Source: a virus. From it: 25,135 nt of DNA. The first letter of the stretch is position 1, and every line of letters starts with the position of its first letter. Both the position numbers and the translations under genes were made by a program. The notes below the pieces were generated by a model. That model was not told where the DNA came from. It made no database searches and saw only the letters and a list, made by a program, of their open reading frames with translations. The stretch spans positions 1 through 25,135 of the IMG/VR virus record IMGVR_UViG_3300025141_000686, one strand, 5' to 3'. This document shows, piece by piece, positions 11,601 through 21,554 of the stretch.

Positions 11601-12108
11601 AGTTCAAACTACTAATTGGACAGTCTCAACGGCTGGTTCTTCGTTTAAAAGATATAGGCATCTTCTTTCTAATTTAGCAACTAAACAGGATATATCTGGA
11701 CTGAGAAGAGTTATAAAGGCTCATACACATGATAGTCCTTTTATTACTTTTCCATTAGTAAGTAATGGTGATGCTCAAATAGATTGGACTCCTGCTGGAG
11801 AACTAAGAATAGGCACTAAGTCTATTTCCATAGCTGCTGGCACTACGGCATCTACTATGGTTAATGATGCTGATGGAAATACTGGTCAATCAAGTACTCC
11901 TCTGGCAACAGATGAATATTTAATTTATTGGCCGGGTACAGGAACAGCTCTTAAAACCATCAAAAGAAAAAATTATGTAAATGTAGAAGGCAATAATGAT
12001 GTAGTTATAGCTAGATGTGCCGATAGGTCTGGGGCTGGAGCCAAATATGTGATGACAATAGATATTGATTTGAGAGCAAGTGCTACTGGAGCAATTACTA
12101 ATACATAA
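8662..12108 (+). CDS. Large tail-tip / baseplate hub-like protein with repeated beta modules
   Basis: At 1148 residues this is the largest gene of the window. A beta module at ~16-84 (VGQHITVDSEIMKITS, VTRAQKGTTAAEH) recurs at ~574-645 (IKIDSEIMIITA, VQRAQEGTSAASH), more weakly at ~650-715, and at ~716-785 (ITIDEEDMTITG, VTRGANSTTAAGH). Between copies 1 and 2 lies a hub-like segment from ~107 (SINVSRKASITIDN, then LFAGKVFSVDEIYD and KIKLECEDDLGVL), similar to baseplate hub/Tal proteins that close the tail tube. The C-terminal ~100 residues have the 'YLIYWP...VVIA' type end seen in tail proteins. The position after the tape measure and distal tail genes supports a tail-tip hub that may also bind the host. 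AAGGAG precedes the ATG. No peptidoglycan hydrolase motif is visible. Confidence 0.6.
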   Translation: MPGRSMLQYHATKQMTLLNEALDDSETAVDVDASHGLQVGQHITVDSEIMKITSFASTNTANVTRAQKGTTAAEHTDNTEVYSDVWNDVVVSGTTVSALSSVTIVDSINVSRKASITIDNTPADPFNATVATANGPYTGIFTDYINVRILDSDVKQTLFAGKVFSVDEIYDFNTGHKIKLECEDDLGVLNLQEAQHAHAIEIDISKAVFNQVYLTDTRDDILHQYTGDAISSKGGLMATICNLYAPDINFSPGTSGDMANELQIETLQANTDGQLDLNVATVAEKYPTNGIYRFDVGPTTFGGHLALLAEGNPTDTNAQTFGTDIYVDSDALDITNTYTRWNSRLRVITRGFDPVTHTDLDLKNNPTKGLSIEYPSNNTAFSGQKQIMYEFENQDNKDSNFNSASVNYKELVLATDGAAYEERSVDMELVSIKDWHYPTLFVASPNEADATVAQQINISNGLGANNTEQLTKDEQTLVHTDYQGYNAKVAHWLQVKVSGTWKTVARIQWLDRTSGTISSASPAYALISEVQDTISTNVNTGYFKEGTVWRQTPIQKGVLAYKAYVVGSAVLCANVIDTVNTTINSSVTSFIISHNVKANFGLNARIKIDSEIMIITALTDNTTLNVQRAQEGTSAASHAYNAVINVTIPQDETTSFDVESGHEIENGNLLAIECAHFDYTEVMRVTGVAGDTITVVRGLSDTVYADNDPTTIALPAETQLAEVLDTSETEIDVSSGTPFEDGDTITIDEEDMTITGIATNTLTVTRGANSTTAAGHDNSTKIYKKAVELYKGGESVDLKYPSFVLKERPMQSMNNIKKATELNIQTVNKPKAIRQEVAAALYRGNNTTSQILKFRTYEKPTWYVDDSPSAVAADTPQTGITKITASTNTILYGLDRGMSLVKLDSSSNPTTTYGYVACLVSNSTTSILETVLNTGSISASDTVRYYIPVRVGDSLYVKNNTANISANAIVLGTVFTEGNGVQTTNWTVSTAGSSFKRYRHLLSNLATKQDISGLRRVIKAHTHDSPFITFPLVSNGDAQIDWTPAGELRIGTKSISIAAGTTASTMVNDADGNTGQSSTPLATDEYLIYWPGTGTALKTIKRKNYVNVEGNNDVVIARCADRSGAGAKYVMTIDIDLRASATGAITNT

Positions 12109-12110
12109 GT

Positions 12111-12497
12111 ATGAATCGAGAAAAAATCGAACAGATTATTGGATATAGACAAGAAAAGCCTCATGAAACTTTACAAGGTATAGCAGATTATTTTAAAGTT
12201 TCTAAACCATATATCCATAAAGTATTAAAAAATAATAATATTCCTACAGTCGGAGCGAAAACCAAGACTGTGAAATATTGTTTAGTTTGTGGTGAGGTAA
12301 CTCCAAGAAAAAGAAAGCTTTGTCCCGGTAGATGTTCTTATACATATTACAATATAAAAGTTAATTGTGCTTTTTGCAGAATTCCTTTCTATAGAAAACG
12401 AGGGCAAATCAAACAGAAATATAATAGTGGACAATATAAAAATATATATTGTAGCTGGAAATGTTATTGTAGAGGACAAAGAGACAAAAGAAGTTGA
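12111..12497 (+). CDS. HTH plus double Cys4 zinc-module protein, putative regulator
   Basis: The 128 residues start with a helix-turn-helix at ~19-43 (LQGIADYFKVSKPYIHKVLK). Two cysteine clusters follow: CLVC...CPGRC (~57-75) and CAFC...CSWKC with a further Cys (~86-120), each able to bind one zinc. The C-terminal half is very basic. The plan suggests a nucleic-acid-binding protein, either a transcription regulator or a relic of a modular zinc-finger protein associated with HNH homing endonucleases; no HNH motif is seen. It lies at the junction between structural and replication modules, beside a sigma-like gene, which favours regulation. No strong ribosome site is present (2-nt gap after the hub gene). 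Confidence 0.6.
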   Translation: MNREKIEQIIGYRQEKPHETLQGIADYFKVSKPYIHKVLKNNNIPTVGAKTKTVKYCLVCGEVTPRKRKLCPGRCSYTYYNIKVNCAFCRIPFYRKRGQIKQKYNSGQYKNIYCSWKCYCRGQRDKRS

Positions 12498-12522
12498 TTC
12501 TTTTTTCATATTAATATAAAAT
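12494..12522 (+). promoter_or_regulatory. Putative promoter of the control/replication operon
   Basis: TTGATT (12494-12499) and TAAAAT (12517-12522) are separated by 17 nt and match sigma-70 -35 and -10 boxes in 4 of 6 and 5 of 6 positions. They sit in the 42-base gap before the membrane protein, sigma-like and replication genes, the natural boundary between late and early regions. Confidence 0.45.
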
Positions 12523-12539
12523 TTGTACAGGTACTTTTT

Positions 12540-12746
12540 ATGAAATGGTTAGATAAGAGTTTTTGGACATTGTTCGCATCTTTGTCCGTAGCACACATTA
12601 TGGAAGATATGGTTTGGGCTGTTTTAGCTCGGTATACCACGATTTCTATATTTATCTTATTGGGGGGAATAATACTTTGGTCGTTTGGTACGGCTGTAAT
12701 TCTAAAAAAATTAGGTAAAACAGGATTCTTCTATGGAAATAAATGA
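12540..12746 (+). CDS. Small membrane protein, possible holin-like
   Basis: A 68-residue protein with one certain membrane helix at ~34-55 (ISIFILLGGIILWSFGTAVIL) and a less certain one at ~8-28 (FWTLFASLSVAHIMEDMVW). The C-terminal tail is basic. Size and topology are compatible with a small holin, but no endolysin is visible in this window, so lysis context is lacking; superinfection exclusion or another membrane function is equally possible. It follows a promoter-like sequence, has a weak AGG ribosome site, and overlaps the sigma-like gene by 14 nt, which indicates co-translation. Confidence 0.5.
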   Translation: MKWLDKSFWTLFASLSVAHIMEDMVWAVLARYTTISIFILLGGIILWSFGTAVILKKLGKTGFFYGNK

Positions 12747-13353
12747 AGAATTAATCCGAAAATGGGAACCTAAAATTCAAAGAATGCTTTTGGTATGGTT
12801 TGTTCCGGGCATGACCAAAGAAGATTTAGCTCAAGAATTACGAATAGCTATAATTAAAGCAGCTAAATCTTATAGAAGTGATGCATCTACTATATTTCAT
12901 ACTTATCTACATAGAACTATGGTTAATACTATAATTACTTTAATTAGTAAGCAGAACAAAAGTAGAGTAATTTGCAGTAGTTGTGGAAAATCTAATACCA
13001 AACAAGTTAAAAAATGTGTTCTTTGTAAAGAACTTCTTCCAAAGGAATCTCCTACAGCCATGTCTTTTGAAAAGTTAGGTGATGATAATAGTCCAGTCGG
13101 ATATTTACCATTTTTATCTCCTTTTAGAATATGGGTTGATACTGGTATTATAGAAAATATGTTTTCTGATGAGGCAGCTACTTATGAACAAGTAGAGATG
13201 GATGCGTGGTTGGATTCACAAAAGCTTGAGCCAAAAGAAAGGGCTTTTATTTCTTTGCGTTTATATGGACTTACTATGGAAGAGATTACTGAAGATTTGG
13301 GGGAGTCTGCTTATAAAATTAGGCAGTCTTTGCGTGGAAAAATACAATTATGA
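12733..13353 (+). CDS. Sigma-70-family-like factor with inserted zinc ribbon
   Basis: Residues ~10-72 resemble sigma region 2 (DLAQELRIAIIKAAKSY and FHTYLHRTMVNTI: acidic D-x2-QE, then a Tyr/Phe-rich helix and conserved Asn), the part that binds core RNA polymerase and the -10 element. Residues ~164-204 resemble region 4 (LEPKERAFISLRLYGLTMEE followed by a recognition-type helix). Between them, C81-x2-C84 and C95-x2-C98 form a zinc ribbon, an unusual insertion for a sigma factor. At 206 residues it has the length of small ECF/phage sigmas plus the insert. It would redirect host RNA polymerase to phage promoters. The start has AGGA 7 nt upstream; the TGA overlaps the next ATG. An anti-sigma or RNAP-binding role cannot be excluded. 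Confidence 0.65.
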   Translation: MEINEELIRKWEPKIQRMLLVWFVPGMTKEDLAQELRIAIIKAAKSYRSDASTIFHTYLHRTMVNTIITLISKQNKSRVICSSCGKSNTKQVKKCVLCKELLPKESPTAMSFEKLGDDNSPVGYLPFLSPFRIWVDTGIIENMFSDEAATYEQVEMDAWLDSQKLEPKERAFISLRLYGLTMEEITEDLGESAYKIRQSLRGKIQL

Positions 13354-13829
13354 CTGCAAAAATTTTGTCCGATTACAACCAACGAGACATATACACCTTT
13401 TTTATGAAGTTGTATAAAGAGAAACATGGAATAGATTATAGAGGAGTTGGTTTTATTAACGATGAAATGCAATTAATCAGAAAGGCTATAGAAGAAAATG
13501 GAGCAGCTCAGATAGTTTGTGCCACAATAAATTGTATAGAACAGAATAATAGGTCAGTTACTATACGGTTTTTTATAGCAGGGTTAAAATATTATGTAAC
13601 TCCCTATCCTCCTGTAGTTTATTGGGCAGTTAAGCAATTTGCTGATAATGAAATTAAAAAACTATGGAGAAAGTTTGAAATTTTAGATTCTGTATGGCTT
13701 CCTAGAGGGTCTCAAAACATAGAACGTACTGAAATTTTAAATGAATTAAAGAAGTGGGCTAATGCCAAAAATAAATCGAAGAAGAAGAGGAAAACTAATA
13801 CAAAAACCAAACCCAAAACAAACGTTTAA
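13350..13829 (+). CDS. Hypothetical protein upstream of helicase, basic C-terminus
   Basis: The protein has 159 residues and no recognised family. It has helices at the N-terminus (YNQRDIYTFFMKLYKEKHG), a central segment with EENGAAQIVCATINCIEQ, and 'YYVTPYPPVVYWAVKQF'. The last ~25 residues are almost entirely Lys/Thr/Arg/Asn, typical of a flexible nucleic-acid-binding tail. It starts at an ATGA overlap with the sigma-like gene and lies two genes upstream of the replicative helicase. Phage helicase loaders and replisome organisers often occupy this slot and are poorly conserved, so this is a reasonable but unproven role. Its 3' end overlaps the next gene by 68 nt in another frame. Confidence 0.55.
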   Translation: MTAKILSDYNQRDIYTFFMKLYKEKHGIDYRGVGFINDEMQLIRKAIEENGAAQIVCATINCIEQNNRSVTIRFFIAGLKYYVTPYPPVVYWAVKQFADNEIKKLWRKFEILDSVWLPRGSQNIERTEILNELKKWANAKNKSKKKRKTNTKTKPKTNV

Positions 13830-13989
13830 GGTACTTGTTATGGATAGTACGTCAGGTGACGTATCATTAATTGGTGAATATGCTTCTTTTTCCGAAGCAA
13901 AACTGGTAGTTGACAAGACTGATACGTCTGGTGTATTATGCTTTGTACACGATGAAAGTAACAGAGTTTTGTATAGAAAAGGAGAGTGA
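13762..13989 (+). CDS. Small hypothetical protein (start uncertain)
   Basis: A 75-residue product of unknown function. The part from ~residue 22 looks like a compact alpha/beta domain (FKVLVMDSTSGDVSLIGEYA, then SEAKLVVD, then GVLCFVHDE). The first ~20 residues, starting with MPKINRRRRG, are basic and encoded over the basic tail of the preceding gene (68-nt overlap). If the ATG at 13840 is used instead, the overlap disappears but the first strand is cut, so I prefer 13762. It ends 6 nt before the helicase start and shares its transcript. Confidence 0.5.
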   Translation: MPKINRRRRGKLIQKPNPKQTFKVLVMDSTSGDVSLIGEYASFSEAKLVVDKTDTSGVLCFVHDESNRVLYRKGE

Positions 13990-13995
13990 GACGTA

Positions 13996-15258
13996 ATGTC
14001 AAGAAAAGATAATTATGACTATGTAGAATCGGCTATTATTTTTGGTCTTGATTCAAAAGCTAATTTAAATGATTTTAAATATGTAGAAAAAGATTTTGCT
14101 ACACATGGTTCTGCTTATGCATATGTAGTTAAGTTTTGGGAAAAATATGGGGAATTTCCTTCTCCAGAACACCTGTTTAAAGAGTTTCCTTTGTTAGCAA
14201 AAGAAGCCCAATCCGTTAATTTTGATTATGCTAAAGAGGAATTTAAAAGCCATGTATTACAAAGAAAAGTAATAAAAGCTGTTAAAAATGAAATGGATTT
14301 AGTTTATAAAAATCCTAAAAGAGCTTTATCTAATATCATGATAAACCTAACTGATATTGAAGTTATTTATGATGAAGATGTTCAAAGTTATGATACTGGT
14401 AATTTAGATAGATTAAGTGAATGGAAACAGAGAACTAAAATACGAGAAATGGGCGAGGGTATGATGGGAATACCTACCAGTTTCAAAACTATAAATGATA
14501 CTGGAGTAGGTTGGATGAAAGGGGAATTAATAGCTATGTTTGCTAGACCTACTATAGGTAAAACATGGATGTGTGTTCATGCAGCAGCTACGGCTGTCAC
14601 TAAAGGTTTTAGAACTTTATTGATTTCTACCGAAATGCCTACTAGAGCTATTAACATGAGAACAGATGTAGTATTAGGTAACATGATGGGTTATAAATTA
14701 TCTCACTCAGCTCTTCGTAGAGGAGATAAAATAGATGAATTAGAATATACAAAGTTTTTACAGGATGCTAATAATAAATCTTTGTTGGTTTGTGACCATA
14801 TAGCAGGACAAATGGGTATATCTACTCAAGCTATTGCTAGTCTTGTAAGAAAACATAAACCTGATTTTGTAGTTATTGATGGGGTATATCTAGTTTCTAC
14901 TGGAGATAGAAGACAAGCTGTATGGGAACAGTCTCATGCGCTTTTCTATGGTTTAAAGAATCTTGCTACAGCTACAGATACTCCAATTATGGTATCAACT
15001 CAAGCTACTAGAGAAGCATCTAATATGTTTATTCCTCCAAGGGCTGACCAAGTAGCTTTTGGGGATGCTTTAATTAGAGCAGCTGACGTTGCTATGGCTA
15101 TGTGTGCTTTAGAAAATGATGATAAAAAACGCATGGTACAATTTCAAAAATATCGTGATGGTGAGTTAGCAAAAGATACTACTGTCATGGATTGGAATTT
15201 AGATTGTGGGGATATAAAAGAACTACCAGATTATGATTGGATGCAAATGAGTACATAA
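13996..15258 (+). CDS. DnaB-type replicative DNA helicase
   Basis: At 420 residues this is a RecA-fold, SF4 hexameric helicase that would unwind the replication fork. Residues ~1-130 form a helical N-terminal domain for primase/loader contacts. The motor begins near 158 (GIPTSFKTINDTGVGWMKGE, typical 'G...FD.lt.G...GEL' element). Walker A is ARPTIGKT at 183-190, with Ala in place of the usual first Gly. Walker B is FVVID at 291-295, followed by the ARR-like 'RQAVWEQSH' region and a Gln sensor (STQATRE). It is followed by the primase gene two steps downstream, so the two proteins should act together. A GGAG ribosome site lies ~12 nt before the ATG. Confidence 0.88.
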   Translation: MSRKDNYDYVESAIIFGLDSKANLNDFKYVEKDFATHGSAYAYVVKFWEKYGEFPSPEHLFKEFPLLAKEAQSVNFDYAKEEFKSHVLQRKVIKAVKNEMDLVYKNPKRALSNIMINLTDIEVIYDEDVQSYDTGNLDRLSEWKQRTKIREMGEGMMGIPTSFKTINDTGVGWMKGELIAMFARPTIGKTWMCVHAAATAVTKGFRTLLISTEMPTRAINMRTDVVLGNMMGYKLSHSALRRGDKIDELEYTKFLQDANNKSLLVCDHIAGQMGISTQAIASLVRKHKPDFVVIDGVYLVSTGDRRQAVWEQSHALFYGLKNLATATDTPIMVSTQATREASNMFIPPRADQVAFGDALIRAADVAMAMCALENDDKKRMVQFQKYRDGELAKDTTVMDWNLDCGDIKELPDYDWMQMST

Positions 15259-15279
15259 TTTTTTAATAGGAGTGTAGAT

Positions 15280-15468
15280 ATGGGCATTTTAGATTGGTTT
15301 ACAGAAGATGACGATGGAGTAATAGTAAAATCTTTGACCAGTAAAGGATTAGGTAAAGAACCTATAGAAATTACTGTTGGAGATATTAAAAAGGGAATTG
15401 CTAAAGATTCTCGTGGATATGAGAATGAAGTGGTACTCTTTTTAAGAAAGAATAAAAAAGACCGATGA
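15280..15468 (+). CDS. Small hypothetical protein between helicase and primase
   Basis: A 62-residue protein with an acidic start (MGILDWFTEDDDG) and a basic end. It is not recognised. AGGAG lies 10 nt before the ATG, and the TGA overlaps the primase ATG (ATGA), so it is translated with the primase. The size and the conserved-looking GDIKKGIAKDSRGYENEVV segment suggest a small folded domain, possibly a replisome accessory, but nothing in the sequence shows this. Confidence 0.55.
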   Translation: MGILDWFTEDDDGVIVKSLTSKGLGKEPIEITVGDIKKGIAKDSRGYENEVVLFLRKNKKDR

Positions 15469-16337
15469 TGGATTGGGCTTCTATATTAATCAAATACGGA
15501 GTCCAAATCTCAGATGAAATTCAATTTGATATAGTTTGTCCTTTTCACCATGACAATACTCCTTCATTAAGTATCAATGTAGAACGAGGTGAGTGGCATT
15601 GTCATGCAGGATGTGGAGGGGGCAAACTAGAATATTTCATCTCAAAATTTTCAGGAAAACCTTGGAAAGAGATAGAAACTAATGAAACATGGGAGATAGA
15701 TTTTTCTGATTTTGAGGATAAACCATCCGTAGAAGAAGAAGATAGTGATTCTATTATTGATTATGGGGATAATTTAGTAGACATTCCTTCTAATCATTGG
15801 ATATTTAAAAGAGGTTTTACTAAAAGCATTTTAGATAAATGGGATTGTAAGGTTAATTCTTATAATGATTTAGTAATTCCTATAAAAACTAAAGAGGGTA
15901 CTACTTCAGGTTGGATAACTAGAAGAATTCAAGCTACCCCAAAATATATGTATTCTAAAGGATTGAAGAAAAGTAAACTTTTGTATGGTATAAACCATCT
16001 TCAATCAGTTGGTACATTATATATAGTTGAGGGAGCTTTGGATGCCATGTGGATGGATTATCATGGATACCCCACTGTAGCTATATTAGGAGCAAGGATA
16101 AGTAAAGCACAAGTAAGCTTAATACGTTCCTTATATCCTAGTGAAGTAGTATTGTGTTTAGATAATGATGAAGCAGGTCAAAGAGGAATTGATAGAGCAA
16201 CACTTGACATGGAAGGTTTATTTATGTTATCTTATATAAACATACCTGATATATATAAAGATTTACAGGAAATACCTAATAAAGAACTTTTAAAGAAAGT
16301 AATAAAAAATAAAGCCTTATGGCGAGGGAGTATATAG
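15465..16337 (+). CDS. DNA primase (CHC2 zinc finger + Toprim)
   Basis: This protein of 290 residues makes RNA primers for lagging-strand synthesis. The N-terminal zinc finger is CPFH (25-28) with PSLSIN and WHCHAGCGGG (Cys46, Cys50), a variant common in phage primases. The Toprim catalytic domain has the EG-x2-D motif (E189, G190, D193, in IVEGALDAM) and the DNDEAG motif (233-238) that hold the catalytic metal. The length matches compact phage primases lacking the helicase-binding C-terminal domain of bacterial DnaG; the helicase is encoded separately upstream. An acidic linker (~88-105) joins finger and core. The start may be ATG 15465 or the adjoining ATG 15468. Confidence 0.9.
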   Translation: MMDWASILIKYGVQISDEIQFDIVCPFHHDNTPSLSINVERGEWHCHAGCGGGKLEYFISKFSGKPWKEIETNETWEIDFSDFEDKPSVEEEDSDSIIDYGDNLVDIPSNHWIFKRGFTKSILDKWDCKVNSYNDLVIPIKTKEGTTSGWITRRIQATPKYMYSKGLKKSKLLYGINHLQSVGTLYIVEGALDAMWMDYHGYPTVAILGARISKAQVSLIRSLYPSEVVLCLDNDEAGQRGIDRATLDMEGLFMLSYINIPDIYKDLQEIPNKELLKKVIKNKALWRGSI

Positions 16338-16339
16338 AT

Positions 16340-17038
16340 ATGAGTGGAATCATGAAGATTCAGCAGAGAAGGGATGAATTAAAAAATCCTAAGACAGAAG
16401 AAACAAAACATACAGAGGTTTGGCTCAAGGATGGAGAACAACTTTTTTGTACATCAGTTGCTAGTGGAGCAGACGATGACAAGCTAGTAGATGAATTATG
16501 GATGTATACCTTTAGAATAGGTAATAGATTCCGTAGTCTATTACAAGATTCTTCAGTAGATGCAACTGGTGTTCCAGAGGATACTAGAGCTTCTCATAGA
16601 TTTGGTTTGTGGGTATATGCACATTATATTTTCCATGTGGACAAAAGAAATGATGAGTGGGAAGAAGTAGAGACTCCATCTGGAGTAAAGATGTTCAAAG
16701 AAGTAATTGATGATTATAGAATAGTTCAGTTAGCTTTTGGTAGAGGGGATTATGTCTGGAATCAGCTAGTAGAAATTTATGGTGATTGGGGTAGTTTAAA
16801 TAAAGGAGTAATTAGAGTTAAGCGTAATGGTATTGGTCTAGATACTTCTTATGCTATTATGGCTACAACTAAAAAAGAAAAGATTCCTGCAGCAAGAAAA
16901 GCAGAAGCATCTGATTTACAGACAATTAAAGAGTACAATTTAGAGAGGTATGGTAAACCTCTGACTGAAGAAGATATGGATATGATGACGATTCATAATA
17001 CTGCTAATGGACACTCATCTGAGGAAACTACTTACTAA
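16340..17038 (+). CDS. Putative single-stranded DNA-binding protein
   Basis: The product is 232 residues from ATG 16340, chosen because GAGGGAG lies 9 nt upstream; an earlier ATG at 16319 overlaps the primase and lacks a ribosome site. The core has aromatic and basic strands (WMYTFRIGNRFRSLL, then RFGLWVYAHYIFHVDKR) and ends with VIRVKRNGIGLDTSYAIMAT, resembling the 'i.R.G.G..T.Y.i.p' element of some phage SSB-like proteins. The C-terminus is acidic (EEDMDMM, SSEETTY), as in many SSBs. It lies between primase and DNA polymerase, exactly where an SSB would be encoded. The assignment is inference from location and these patterns. Confidence 0.45.
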   Translation: MSGIMKIQQRRDELKNPKTEETKHTEVWLKDGEQLFCTSVASGADDDKLVDELWMYTFRIGNRFRSLLQDSSVDATGVPEDTRASHRFGLWVYAHYIFHVDKRNDEWEEVETPSGVKMFKEVIDDYRIVQLAFGRGDYVWNQLVEIYGDWGSLNKGVIRVKRNGIGLDTSYAIMATTKKEKIPAARKAEASDLQTIKEYNLERYGKPLTEEDMDMMTIHNTANGHSSEETTY

Positions 17039-19102
17039 GTGTCTCTAGTAACTAAGGCTACTTTTGATTCTGATTTTGCAGGATTAAAGGAAGTTATTAG
17101 TTCTTATAATGCAAAGAAAACTCTTGTTGTTGATGTAGAAACTAATGGCAAAGACCCCTATAGCTACAATCAAATTTGTGGCTTGGGGGTCGGAGACCAT
17201 CATGGTACTTTAACTCAGTACTATCCTTTTAGGCATCAGCAAGGAGAGAATCTTGATATTGAGCATTTAAAAGAAGTAGTAGCTTTTCTCAATGATTCTG
17301 TGGATACTTTTATAGGTTTTAACTGTAAATTCGATTTTCGTTTTTTAGAGAAGGAAGGAGTAGATTTTTCCGATAAAAAACTAATTGACGTTATCGTAAT
17401 GGCTCGGTTAATTGAACCGGCAGAAACAGCAGAAGCCATGTTTACACAAATGAGTTTAACGTCTGTAGGAACAAGGCATTATGGTATTGGAGCAGTACAA
17501 TACGATATTGACACAAAACTTGAATTAAGAAAGAAAAAGTGGGATAAGGATTATTCTTTGTCACCACCAACTTTTTTAGGGCCTTATTGCGAGAAAGATG
17601 TTGAGTTAACTACTAGATTATATAATGATTGTTTAAAAAAGATTATTAAATCTAAGCAAACCAATCTTTATGAGATGCAATGTGACCTTACAAAAGTTTT
17701 ATTTAATACTGAAAGAAGAGGAATTGCTGTAGATGAACAGTATGCAGAAGAGGCTCAACAAAAAGTATTGAAACGTCTTGATGAAGTAGAGCAACAAATA
17801 TTAAATATGTCAGGTCGTATAAAATGGCGTGCTGATATTCCTTCTACTTCTGTTGAACATGATTTAGAAAAAGAATTTAATATTTTAAGTTATCAGCAAG
17901 TAGGAAAGGTTTTTAATAGTATGGGAATAGAGTCCCCAACGAAGACTGCTACAGGTGCTGATTCTTGGGATGAAGCTACTTTGATTAATATTAATCATCC
18001 TATAGCAGGGTTACTCAGACAGTATAGAACTTTAAGGAAACTAAATTCTACTTATATAAAACCTTACCTAAATTCTGAGATTATGAGGACTGTATTTTGT
18101 AATTGGGGAACATCTACAGGTAGATTATCTAGCCGTAATCCTAATTTACAGAATATACCTAGAAATCATTTTAAGATGGAAGGAGTTTCTTTAACTGATG
18201 AAGAAGCTGAAAATCTGTATCTTAAAATTAAAAGTTTGTTTGCTTCAAAAGGAATATCTATTCCTGATTCTATATCAAAAGAAGTTTTGGAAACTTGGTC
18301 TTTTGTAGGAGATGAATCATATGACGATTCAGATGATAATCAAATAGCGATTAGAAGACTATTTATATCTAGACCTGATTATCAATTAATTAGTTTTGAC
18401 TATTCTCAGATGGAAGTTAGAGTATTTCTTTCTTATTTTCTTAATGAGGTTACAGAAGCTATGTTAAAGAAACAGGATGTAGATTTTCATACTGAAGCAG
18501 CTAAATTAGCTTTCGGTATAACTGAAGATGATAAACGTTTTAAGGAGTTTAGACAAATGGCTAAAGCTATTACATTTGGAACTATTTATGGTATTGGAAA
18601 TAAAAAACTTGCTGAACAATTAGGAGTTTCTCCTACAGAAGCAGGGGCTTATAAAAGACAGTATTTTAGTGCCATGAAAGGTTCAAAGAAATTTTTTACT
18701 GATGCTACTAAAAAAATTGAACAATGGGGTTTTGTAAAAAATAGGTATGGGCGTGTATATAAATTGCCTAAAGCTGTTGCTTACAAAGCAGTAAATTATC
18801 TAGTACAGGGAACTAGTGCTGATATTCTAAGTGAGCGAATGATAGAGATAGATAAATACCTTGCTGATAAGCAGAGTAATATCCTACTTCAAGTTCATGA
18901 TGAGATTATCTGCGAGATTCATAACTCTGAATTGGATAATATACCATTTGTTATAAAATCTTTATTGGAGACAAATAGTTTAGATATTCCTTTGGTAGTG
19001 GATATGGAAATTTGTTCTCCTTCATGGGCATCAAAAAAGGATTTTACTATTCCAACAGAATATATGGAAGAGGATGATTATCTGGAATATTTAGATAAAT
19101 AA
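17039..19102 (+). CDS. polA: Family A DNA polymerase with 3'-5' exonuclease
   Basis: The protein is 687 residues with a GTG start directly after the preceding TAA; GAGGAA lies 12 nt upstream. The proofreading domain has DVE (D32, E34), GFNCKFD (N95, D99) and Y183-x3-D187. The polymerase domain has motif A DYSQMEVRV (D454), motif B R505-x3-K509-x3-F513 ending in YG, and motif C VHDE (H620-E622). There is no 5'-nuclease domain, as usual for phage enzymes. The residue matching E. coli Phe762 is Phe513. Between NPNLQNIP (~367-374) and IRRLF (~438-442) there are ~60 extra residues with an acidic end, absent in E. coli Pol I. It replicates the phage genome with the upstream helicase, primase and SSB-like protein. 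Confidence 0.93.
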   Translation: MSLVTKATFDSDFAGLKEVISSYNAKKTLVVDVETNGKDPYSYNQICGLGVGDHHGTLTQYYPFRHQQGENLDIEHLKEVVAFLNDSVDTFIGFNCKFDFRFLEKEGVDFSDKKLIDVIVMARLIEPAETAEAMFTQMSLTSVGTRHYGIGAVQYDIDTKLELRKKKWDKDYSLSPPTFLGPYCEKDVELTTRLYNDCLKKIIKSKQTNLYEMQCDLTKVLFNTERRGIAVDEQYAEEAQQKVLKRLDEVEQQILNMSGRIKWRADIPSTSVEHDLEKEFNILSYQQVGKVFNSMGIESPTKTATGADSWDEATLININHPIAGLLRQYRTLRKLNSTYIKPYLNSEIMRTVFCNWGTSTGRLSSRNPNLQNIPRNHFKMEGVSLTDEEAENLYLKIKSLFASKGISIPDSISKEVLETWSFVGDESYDDSDDNQIAIRRLFISRPDYQLISFDYSQMEVRVFLSYFLNEVTEAMLKKQDVDFHTEAAKLAFGITEDDKRFKEFRQMAKAITFGTIYGIGNKKLAEQLGVSPTEAGAYKRQYFSAMKGSKKFFTDATKKIEQWGFVKNRYGRVYKLPKAVAYKAVNYLVQGTSADILSERMIEIDKYLADKQSNILLQVHDEIICEIHNSELDNIPFVIKSLLETNSLDIPLVVDMEICSPSWASKKDFTIPTEYMEEDDYLEYLDK

Positions 19103-19107
19103 AGAAT

Positions 19108-19147
19108 CAATGGATATACCCCCCCTAAGAAGGGGGTATATCCATTG
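19108..19147 (+). promoter_or_regulatory. Perfect 16-bp hairpin sequestering the mom-like start
   Basis: Bases 19108-19123 and 19132-19147 are exact reverse complements (CAATGGATATACCCCC / GGGGGTATATCCATTG) around an 8-nt loop. The stem begins 5 nt after the polymerase stop. The right arm holds both the G-rich Shine-Dalgarno run (19132-19136) and the TTG start (19145-19147) of the mom-like gene. The following bases (AAGAAAAATAAG) contain no U-tract, arguing against an intrinsic terminator on this strand. A translation-blocking role is proposed. Confidence 0.75.
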
Positions 19148-19672
19148 AAGAAAAATAAGGGGGATAACACGGACATAACAGTAAAAGATATAGTAGTTGA
19201 ACAAACACGAGCGCAAATCGCTTGTATGTTGAATGAACTATGGCATTCCAAACTACCAGACATCCATTGGTCAAATGTTGTAAGAAATAAGCATTATATA
19301 TGCTATGCATTCAAATATAAGCAAGCAATAATAGGTGTGGGTATATGGTCTTCACCTGTAGCAGCCAATAGATTCAAGGATGGGGATAAGTTATTAGAGT
19401 TAAGAAGACTTGCTTTATCTGATGTATGTCCTAGAAATACAGCCTCCTTTGTTATAGCAACTATGATAAAGGATATTAAGGAACGATTTCCAGAGTTGAT
19501 ACGATTAATTTCCTATCAGGATACAGAAGCCCATTTAGGAACTATATATAAAGCATCTAACTGGACACAGGCTCCTCAACAGACTCCTTTATTAGATTGG
19601 ACTACTTCAAAACGAAAACGGACTCCTTTACAGTCCACAGCAGCTAAGATTAGATGGGAGTATGAATTATAA
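19145..19672 (+). CDS. mom: Mom-like GNAT DNA-modification protein
   Basis: At 175 residues this fits Mom-like phage acyltransferases of the GNAT fold. Their Mu prototype converts adenine in DNA to an N6-carbamoylmethyl-type base and so protects phage DNA from restriction. Family-like segments are LWHSKLP (32-38), IWSSPVA (67-73), ELRRLAL (85-91), PRNTAS (96-101), LISYQDT (121-127) and GTIYKASNW (132-140). The C-terminus is basic. The start TTG (19145) has a GGGGG run 8 nt upstream; both are in a perfect hairpin. The next possible start, ATG 19226, would remove 27 residues and leave no good ribosome site. In Mu the gene is tightly controlled because its product is toxic; the rare start and hairpin here fit that. 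The modified site and base are unknown. Confidence 0.78.
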   Translation: MKKNKGDNTDITVKDIVVEQTRAQIACMLNELWHSKLPDIHWSNVVRNKHYICYAFKYKQAIIGVGIWSSPVAANRFKDGDKLLELRRLALSDVCPRNTASFVIATMIKDIKERFPELIRLISYQDTEAHLGTIYKASNWTQAPQQTPLLDWTTSKRKRTPLQSTAAKIRWEYEL

Positions 19673-19673
19673 G

Positions 19674-20063
19674 ATGGTACAGTTTAATAAAAATTTTAAG
19701 CATGATTTAGAATTTGGGGAAATTAGGGAGCAGAAAGTTGCTGATATTTTCCTAAATGAGAAAATTGAAGTAAAAACAGAGCGTGATACATGGTTCACTA
19801 CAGGAAATATTGCTATAGAGATAAAGTATAGGAATGAAGATAGTGGTCTTAGAACTACTGAATCTAAGTATTGGATGCATATTCTTGACTATAATGGTCA
19901 ACAATTTTGTACGTTGATGTTTGAGGTTGCTACTTTAAGAAAATTGGTTAATGAATTATTAGACCAAGAAAAAGCTGTGATTAAAATGGGTGGGGATGAT
20001 AAACAAAGTACTTTAGTTCTTATACCAATTAGTAAAATATTCACAGTTGCTAATCAGATATAG
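19674..20063 (+). CDS. PD-(D/E)XK-like endonuclease family protein
   Basis: The protein has 129 residues from ATG 19674; an earlier ATG at 19662 (133 residues, 11-nt overlap with mom) is only 1 nt from the GGGAG ribosome site and so less likely. The layout helix with Glu (GEIREQKVADIF), strand with EVKTE (32-36), strand with IAIEIKYR, then 'SGLRTTESKYWMHIL', resembles small PD-(D/E)XK-fold nucleases found in phages. Candidate metal ligands are Glu16 or Glu19, Glu32, Lys34, Glu49 and Lys51. It could be a structure-specific nuclease for replication branches, or, given its neighbour, act against unmodified DNA. The fold call is pattern-based. Confidence 0.55.
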   Translation: MVQFNKNFKHDLEFGEIREQKVADIFLNEKIEVKTERDTWFTTGNIAIEIKYRNEDSGLRTTESKYWMHILDYNGQQFCTLMFEVATLRKLVNELLDQEKAVIKMGGDDKQSTLVLIPISKIFTVANQI

Positions 20064-20075
20064 ATAGAGTATAAT
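20047..20075 (+). promoter_or_regulatory. Putative sigma-70-type promoter for the recombination genes
   Basis: TTGCTA (20047-20052, 4 of 6) and a perfect TATAAT (20070-20075) are spaced by 17 nt. The -10 lies in the 44-base gap before the gene at 20108, in the same AGTATAATA context as at 1591 and 3468. It would allow the recombination genes to be expressed separately from the mom-like gene. Confidence 0.55.
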
Positions 20076-20107
20076 AGGTTTTATATTAAATACAGGAGAG
20101 AATAAAT

Positions 20108-20341
20108 ATGTCAAAAGTTAGCGTACATTTAGGATTTACATTCAGAGTAGAGCCATTAGACCAGAATCAATATGGTAGAGTAGACCTTACTTATGACCAG
20201 ATTGATACTGAACTACCTCTTCAACCTCAATTAGATTCATCTAATGATGTAGCAGATATAGTTTGGGGTACTATTAAAGAGAAAGTAGATTCACAAATTG
20301 ATAGTATGCTACTAAAGAAGAAGAAGAAGAATACTGGATAA
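20108..20341 (+). CDS. Small hypothetical protein
   Basis: A 77-residue protein of unknown family. Residues 1-35 look beta-rich (VSVHLGFTFRVEPLD and GRVDLTYDQIDTEL), residues ~45-68 helical, and the C-terminus is a run of Lys. AGGAGAG lies before the ATG, downstream of a good promoter candidate. It heads the run MazG-like - RecA-like - nucleases - resolvase, so a part in DNA metabolism is possible, but no motif supports a specific role. Confidence 0.55.
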   Translation: MSKVSVHLGFTFRVEPLDQNQYGRVDLTYDQIDTELPLQPQLDSSNDVADIVWGTIKEKVDSQIDSMLLKKKKKNTG

Positions 20342-20343
20342 AT

Positions 20344-20601
20344 ATGTCTGAGCTTGGTCGTATAGTAGTTTTAGAAGCTATCTTAAAAGAAAGAGAGCTT
20401 CAAGATTCTGTATGGAAAGACCAAGAAGATTACTCCAATGAATGGTGGCATGTGATAGCCACAGAGAAAAGTGGAGAAGTCGCTAAAGAGATATACCAAG
20501 CCTCTGAGAAACAATTACTTAGAAAACTCATTGTTTTATGTGCTGTTTATTTTGCTTGGGCAGAGATGTTAGTTAAAAATTCACAAGGAGATATTGAATG
20601 A
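20344..20601 (+). CDS. MazG-like (all-alpha NTP pyrophosphohydrolase fold) protein, probably degenerate
   Basis: At 85 residues this is a short all-helical protein of the MazG-like type: ILKERELQDSVW, then ATEKSGEVAKEIYQ, then KLIVLCAVYFAWAEML. In active relatives the middle helix has EE-x2-E and a later helix has E-x2-D, which bind Mg2+ for NTP hydrolysis. Here the first is E41-K-S-G-E45, and the second is replaced by K61-L-I-V64, so metal binding is likely impaired. It may have become a regulatory or scaffold protein, or the call may be only a fold resemblance. Its TGA overlaps the recA-like ATG (ATGA) and its end supplies that gene's AAGGAGA ribosome site. Confidence 0.6.
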   Translation: MSELGRIVVLEAILKERELQDSVWKDQEDYSNEWWHVIATEKSGEVAKEIYQASEKQLLRKLIVLCAVYFAWAEMLVKNSQGDIE

Positions 20602-21554
20602 AACAAAGCGCAAAAGAAATAATGGACACTTTGTTAAAGAATGATAAAAATTTGAAGTTGGGGAATGATGATGAGTTTGTGTATTCACGAATTCCTTTTA
20701 ATATTCCTAATCTAGATAAATTAACTGGTGGAGGAATTCCTACAAAAAGGATATCTCTTATACATGGCCCTTCTAATGTAGGTAAATCTTATTTAGCTTT
20801 ACGTCTATTGAATACTGTACAGAAACAAGGCGGTTTAACGGCTTGGGTAGATACAGAACTATCGTGGGATAGAGAGTGGGTTGCTAAAGCTGGGGTAAAT
20901 CCTGATGAAGTATTGATGGTACAACCAAAAAATGGTGAACATGCTTTAGATAAGATGAGAGATTTTATGAGAGAGGGTGTAGATATTATTGTTTTAGATA
21001 GTCTAGCAGGATTAGTTCCTGAAAATATAGAAGCAGGAGATTTTTCTTATAGTCCTATAGCATGGCAATCTAGATTTATAAACCAATCCTTACCTAAACT
21101 AGTGAATAGTTTAAGACATGGGTCTACTCTAGTGGTTATAAATCAAGTGAGAGATTCTTTAAGTCCATCACAATTTCAATCGATGCCGGGAGGAAAGGGA
21201 CAAATATACTTTGCTCATGTTATGTTGGAATTAAAAAAGGGCGGTTGGCTAGAGGAAGAATTAGAAGGGAAAAAGACTAAACGTAAATTAGGTTTTGATA
21301 TAGATGTTAGATTGAAAAAAACAAAAGCAGGGGGACATAATTGGGAAAATGTTCTTGTGCCTTTTAGGGTAGAGGGGGGTATTGATATCATAGAATGTAA
21401 TATGAGGGAAGCTATAGCACAAGATTTAATAAAGAAAAATGGTGCTTGGTATACATACAAAGATAATAGAATACAAGGAATGAATGGATTAAGAAATTTC
21501 TTTACAGCTAATCCTAAAGTTTACCAAGAAATGGAAAATGAACTCTCCACCTAG
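20598..21554 (+). CDS. recA-like: RecA/UvsX-like recombinase
   Basis: A 318-residue strand-exchange ATPase. After an N-terminal ~25 residues comes IPNLDKLTGGGIPTKRISLI, typical of the RecA core, then Walker A GPSNVGKS (57-64), a catalytic-region 'WVDTELSWDREW' (83-94) and Walker B IIVLDS (130-135). VVINQVRDSLSPSQFQSMPG corresponds to the strand before DNA-binding loop 2, and 'GGKGQIYFAHVMLEL' follows it. The bacterial C-terminal domain is reduced, as in phage proteins such as UvsX. It would form filaments on ssDNA and drive recombination-dependent replication together with the UvsY-like and RuvC-like products encoded downstream. It could also be read as a Sak4-like single-strand annealing ATPase, but the length and loop favour a full recombinase. 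Confidence 0.82.
   Translation: MKQSAKEIMDTLLKNDKNLKLGNDDEFVYSRIPFNIPNLDKLTGGGIPTKRISLIHGPSNVGKSYLALRLLNTVQKQGGLTAWVDTELSWDREWVAKAGVNPDEVLMVQPKNGEHALDKMRDFMREGVDIIVLDSLAGLVPENIEAGDFSYSPIAWQSRFINQSLPKLVNSLRHGSTLVVINQVRDSLSPSQFQSMPGGKGQIYFAHVMLELKKGGWLEEELEGKKTKRKLGFDIDVRLKKTKAGGHNWENVLVPFRVEGGIDIIECNMREAIAQDLIKKNGAWYTYKDNRIQGMNGLRNFFTANPKVYQEMENELST

Follow-up and report, generated by a model that had tools for sequence, protein, structure and literature searches.

The viral DNA fragment analysed here (25,135 nucleotides, positions 1 to 25,135 of IMG/VR record IMGVR_UViG_3300025141_000686; hereafter the window) carries a perfect hairpin at the junction between a DNA polymerase gene and a mom gene. 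The explanation we favour, at a probability of about 0.55, is that this hairpin is a copy of a small dispersed palindromic element and not a switch built for mom, and that it likely weakens mom translation. The same hairpin occurs at sites without mom in other phage sequences, and thus it looks like a travelling repeat rather than a purpose-built device. Directly seen are the repeat family with its sites, a relative of the junction that has no hairpin, and an ACG codon in place of the ATG of that relative. A regulatory role of the hairpin on mom is possible.

The hairpin was identified by inverted-repeat listing, folding and an arm scan, and occupies positions 19107–19148 on the plus strand, with its arms at 19107–19123 and 19132–19148 and an 8-nt loop, CCTAAGAA. 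The original prediction had described a perfect stem of 16 bp; the perfect pairing held, but the stem is one pair longer (17 bp). Among seven inverted repeats in the window (at least 12 nt, within 40 nt), it is the sole perfect one. Folding of 19080–19260, which had been suggested as a check, gave a strong structure of -53.6 kcal/mol (z -6.85), and none of 200 shuffles was equally stable. When 40 windows were simulated with a first-order model that preserved the dinucleotide composition, their longest perfect stems measured 8–11 bp, compared with 17 bp here, and the hairpin is confirmed to lie far beyond chance. Rfam gave no match in the window at gathering score.

Upstream of the hairpin lies a family A DNA polymerase gene (17039–19102, plus strand), recognised by a profile match. 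Its stop codon was confirmed at 19100–19102, although the proposed distance of 5 nt shrinks to 4 nt when counted from the 17-bp stem. Downstream, the Mom-like gene (19145–19672, plus strand; 175 aa from TTG as listed) matches the profiles PF25680 and phrog_1384, and its score of 65 bits against PF25680, with a curated cut-off of 27.1, bears out its assignment to the true Mom family; Mom of phage Mu reaches 253 bits with the same profile. As claimed, the right arm contains both GGGGG (19132–19136) and TTG (19145–19147). A leader frame of 12 codons (19110–19148, plus strand) runs from an ATG across the hairpin to a TGA which overlaps TTG 19145 as TTGA, and it includes a run of seven C at 19119–19125 (plus strand). 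The hairpin is flanked on the plus strand by the direct repeat AGAA (19103–19106 on the left and 19149–19152 on the right), a possible 4-bp target duplication with a chance of about 0.006.

Relatives of the gene and of the region were sought in sequence collections. GenBank phages held no DNA similar to 17039–21554, and tblastn of Mom against them matched 81 records, every one below 60% identity. Among the contexts encountered (L066 and L067), mom adjoins a DNA polymerase gene in opposite order in Salmonella phage SP-031 and overlaps an annotated type II restriction endonuclease gene in Synechococcus phage DSL-LC03. One phage record carries a tandem, overlapping pair of Mom-family genes (L026:4786-6007).

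An indication that the hairpin is not proper to mom came from a scan of the IMG/VR viral contigs (viral_contigs, 2.9 million contigs), in which both arms were required. Four contigs were retrieved, namely L002 and L011, which belong to the lineage of the window, and L012 and L013, which carry the palindrome at sites without mom. L012 and L013 are 99.2% alike over 10 kb and were therefore counted as one source, and the family amounts to three distinct sites in five records including the window. Each of these two contigs has one copy that matches that of the window except for the run lengths (C5/G4) and a second, diverged copy 446 nt upstream of the first. The family follows the pattern T[C/T]AATG[G/A]ATAT...Cn-TAAGAA-Gn...ATAT[C/T]CATT[G/A]A over 39–42 bp, and the TAAGAA loop is kept in all copies. 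The four hairpin sequences compared are all perfectly paired over 16–17 pairs. Relative to the window, the diverged copy has both members of two pairs replaced and lacks both members of a third, with no pair broken, so complementarity has been kept despite sequence drift. DNA template switching can, however, also preserve palindromes in this way.

The near-identical L012 copy begins 3 nt past a TAA stop and lies upstream of a gene of 1263 aa, which matches NUDIX families and not Mom. In viral_contigs this gene was found only in the L012 and L013 contigs, so there is no hairpin-free relative to compare at that site; GenBank phages gave partial matches only (8 records, 18–19% of the query). The diverged copy (L012:4649-4776) sits between two divergent promoter-like sites, upstream of both, which agree with the consensus at 12/12 and 11/12 positions. 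The promoter scan returned three sites, compared with 4.5 expected in shuffles, and since this is fewer than in shuffles, the site count is meaningless and only the two scores are informative.

Searches beyond the arm scan returned little. The 42-nt hairpin gave an 18-nt partial match in one Pseudomonas phage record among GenBank phages and none among plasmids, and a scan of host genomes (genome_contigs, 84,980 species) yielded five stretches, none with the family arms. The core CCCCCTAAGAAGGGGG alone occurs in 35 viral contigs, of which four are the family and 31 have other arms or none; two of these 31 (L039 and L062) have stems of their own. One further contig (L025) was dropped as a family member, as only one arm matched. 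A literature search on phase-variable mom, on Mom and Com, and on phage hairpin repeats gave nothing on this element among the matches listed. The most fitting label for the element is that of a new, small dispersed palindrome of phages, which to date is known from Mom-bearing phage records.

The DNA match between the window and L012 extends slightly past the palindrome (window 19096–19155, 87% over 60 nt), and no element end beyond the palindrome was found. The window copy has a flush direct repeat of 4 bp, whereas in L012 one copy has 3 bp and the other none, so target duplication is not consistent. The AGAA flanks may point to insertion, but this pattern does not recur at the other sites.

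The three sites need not belong to different phages. Searched with open reading frames of the window (at least 50 aa), the two pieces of L012 returned two Mom matches (29–31% identity) and one match of 29 residues (E 0.002). The record of L013 returned one Mom match (25% identity, E 0.009) and, at E 0.002, a short frame on the minus strand. With the record of the junction relative L010 (G003) as the query, the L012 record yielded two matches to Mom plus five other, weak ones (E 5e-5 to 0.008), and that of L013 one match to Mom plus one other, weak one (E 0.004 and 0.006). At least one Mom gene over the cut-off was present in each of the four records searched, compared with none of 14 control genomes; the record of L013 has a single one (L028:16297-16920). 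A family A polymerase is absent from the records of L012 and L013, which are possibly fragments. The correlation of tetranucleotide usage with the window was 0.79 and 0.88 for the L012 pieces, 0.94 for the record of L013 and 0.98 for that of L010, and the halves of the window correlate at 0.89; such values would fit a shared host, or even a single genome. L012, L013 and the window could thus be fragments of one phage type, in which case the repeat would be intragenomic. Whether there is one phage type or two, mom is not the only place where the hairpin occurs.

Three close relatives of the junction itself were found among viral contigs, L002, L011 and L005/L010. The first two are near-identical to the window and keep the stem. 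Over 9.4 kb, L002 differs by eight substitutions, one C missing in the run at 19119 and a 3-bp deletion, the last at 20315–20317 in an AAG repeat towards the end of a small gene (20108–20341). From 12110 to 20326, L011 differs by one substitution and the missing C in the same run. Within 19000–19672, the length of the C-run is the sole difference between the window and these two records, and the mom region is identical in all three. The end of a tail-fibre-like gene (11831–12109) differs strongly from L011, elsewhere almost identical, which points either to recombination or hypervariability in this patch or, since the L011 contig ends here, to an artefact. More remote contigs (L006–L008) were rejected as comparators, their Mom identity of 33–34% being too distant.

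L005/L010 is 73–81% identical to the window at the DNA level in three aligned pieces and lacks the hairpin. Close relatives without the stem had been named as evidence against a lock on mom; L010 provides such a case, but at this identity it is not very close, and the closer L002 and L011 retain the stem. With a single relative lacking the hairpin, gain here and loss in L010 are indistinguishable. From GGACATAACAG onward, L010 and the window are in close agreement, and their Mom proteins are 95% identical; the polymerase of L010 has a longer C-terminus. The L010 gene begins with ATG GAC ATA ACA, the first start codon in frame, overlapping the polymerase stop. The corresponding position in the window is ACG (19169–19171, plus strand), preceded by a Shine-Dalgarno-like AAGGGGG at 19157–19163; no ATG, GTG or TTG is found there. 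As the L010 start aligns outside the stem, TTG 19145 is probably not the inherited start but a candidate replacement.

Accessibility of these starts was compared by folding. In a 300-nt fold, the unpaired probability was 0.00 for TTG 19145, 0.82 for ACG 19169, 0.12 for the second AAGGGGG and 0.07 for the L010 mom ATG, and in 100-nt folds it was 0.94 for the stretch before ACG and 0.63 for the L010 ATG. The choice of folding window alters everything except the 17-bp stem, which is the sole stable feature.

From Mom itself, strong conservation is evident. Between the window and L010 (19172–19672), dN is 0.018, far below the 0.17–0.34 of eight compared neighbours (polymerase 0.23), and dS is 0.49, the lowest among the nine genes compared. 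Exchange of mom as a block was considered and rejected, as its dS is close to that of one neighbour (0.51) and strong constraint alone may explain the values. This constraint reflects the time before the split and is silent on present expression.

Taken as a sequence of events, the preferred explanation would start from an ancestor in which the mom ATG probably overlapped the polymerase stop. The palindrome would have arrived at the junction by insertion or recombination, the alternative being its loss in the relative, and would have separated mom from the polymerase stop and so broken translational coupling. The ancestral ATG was presumably lost, leaving a weak start, either TTG in the stem or ACG behind the second AAGGGGG, and the main effect would be a lower output of Mom.

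Other explanations were weighed against the dispersed element. The original prediction proposed that mom starts at TTG 19145, is hidden by the stem as in phage Mu and is opened by some factor, which we consider unlikely. In Mu, as outlined in PMC6483171, Com binds a hairpin beside an inhibition structure which holds the GUG start, and the Com motif is given there as CC(N)2-3GAG. The Mu com-mom region, used as a control, showed two such motifs and a folded stem over GUG, so the tests are able to detect an arrangement of the Mu type; the Mu record annotates an upstream ATG as the mom start. Part of the proposed analogy stands, as TTG and its GGGGG do lie in a very stable stem and the relative's start aligns with ACG and not with ATG, GTG or TTG. 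The part that makes the hairpin proper to mom is not supported, given the same palindrome without mom elsewhere, the relative's start outside the stem and the absence of CC(N)2-3GAG from 19000–19260, where the loop CCTAAGAA is a near miss. Absence of an adjacent Com-like Cys4 protein was predicted correctly; the 25-kb window contains none, and its only two frames with paired CxxC lie about 6–7 kb from the junction. Both had been suggested as zinc proteins that open the stem, and both do have the paired CxxC, but the one at 12733 matches sigma-70 region 2 (region 4 is below the cut-off) and the one at 12111 has a weak HNH-like match. A Com-like gene could lie beyond the 25-kb fragment.

If mom were locked in this way, the likeliest opener would be the ribosome. 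Ribosomes terminating on the polymerase gene halt 4 nt short of the stem; reinitiation at ATG 19110 could then carry them along the 12-codon frame, through the stem, to the TGA which overlaps TTG. This overlap is present in the 7-C window, but it is not kept in the 6-C records L002 and L011, where the leader frame ends in the loop after five codons; moreover, a palindrome with TCAATG ends supplies ATG and CATTGA by itself. When 14 mom starts were folded, each with 60 nt of upstream and 40 nt of downstream sequence, a perfect stem of 15–17 bp was seen at three (TTG and ACG of the window and TTG of L002). At the other 11, all of which lie away from this junction and which include the annotated ATG of Mu, the longest perfect stem ranged from 3 to 7 bp, which favours the lock. 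Against it, a paired start is not rare among these weak folds either, with unpaired probabilities of 0.00 for the second mom of L026, 0.05 for Riggi and 0.14 for VnaP.

It is less likely still that the hairpin serves the upstream gene, as a terminator, RNase III site or stabiliser at the 3' end of its message. Two of the three sites begin 3–4 nt past a TAA stop (the window and L012 5144), and all three are terminator-like on the minus strand, with T-rich tails. The plus strand reads otherwise: as originally stated, no U-run follows the stem (GAAGAAAAAT), a T-rich tail being present on the minus strand only, the tip of the stem rather than its base carries the G+C pairs, and a terminator-like site at 19107 is listed for the minus strand and none for the plus strand. 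At the third site, the hairpin is upstream of both divergent promoter-like sites. A strong terminator would also cut off mom and the genes downstream, and the scan lists no plus-strand promoter-like site between 18424 and 19683.

Phase variation is a further candidate, and a doubtful one. Slippage in the C-run would shift the frame of ATG 19110 relative to mom: with 5 or 8 C, ATG 19110 is open into Mom (ON), and with 6 or 7 C it is out of frame (OFF). The change from 7 to 6 C between otherwise near-identical records, being one of only two differences from L011, would fit, as would the lengths of 7, 6, 5 and 7 in the four hairpin sequences compared and the position of ATG 19110 only 7 nt past the stop codon of the polymerase, a distance that makes coupled initiation plausible. 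However, the ON allele was not seen in the three records of the lineage, and classic contingency tracts tend to be longer than a run of 6–7. Runs vary in the mom-free copies too, so slippage may be neutral, or the variation may be assembly error at the hairpin tip. Just as doubtful is a combined account in which both an ATG and a slippery C-run came with a mobile palindrome and the gene lost its native ATG; Mom would then be turned on in part of the phage population by slippage of the run, with the stem opened by translation of the leader.

If the hairpin is a mobile palindrome, a tiny phage-borne repeat would have rewired the start of an anti-restriction gene, which would call for caution before every hairpin at a start site is taken for a dedicated regulator. 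If a switch were true instead, the phage would be hedging DNA modification within its population.

Several known systems resemble the element in part. The lox and FRT sites consist of inverted arms around an asymmetric core of about 8 bp. The sequence plan of the palindrome is similar, with arms around an asymmetric core of 7–8 nt, and the two L012 copies flank one gene as direct repeats at a distance of 446 nt. The arms of 16–17 bp and the variable core length set it apart from these sites.

With the com/mom translation inhibition structure (TIS) of Mu, as far as PMC6483171 describes it, the junction shares a Mom-family gene and a start codon with a nearby Shine-Dalgarno sequence in an RNA stem. 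The Mu stem is short and imperfect, whereas that of the window has 17 perfect pairs, and in identical folding the stem alone reached -29.5 kcal/mol, compared with -9.5 for the 32-nt Mu stretch. Unlike in Mu, no Com gene was seen in the window and no CC(N)2-3GAG at its junction; its hairpin also occurs away from mom, and the start of the relative aligns outside the stem.

Repetitive extragenic palindromes (REP) and similar small palindromes offer another parallel. They differ in that the present element is found in phage records only and in few copies. By the descriptions given in PMC3733652 and PMC12306157, REP-type palindromes measure 20–40 bp and are dispersed at gene ends or between genes, as is the case here, and a further REP-like trait of this element is that its pairing is preserved while the sequence drifts.
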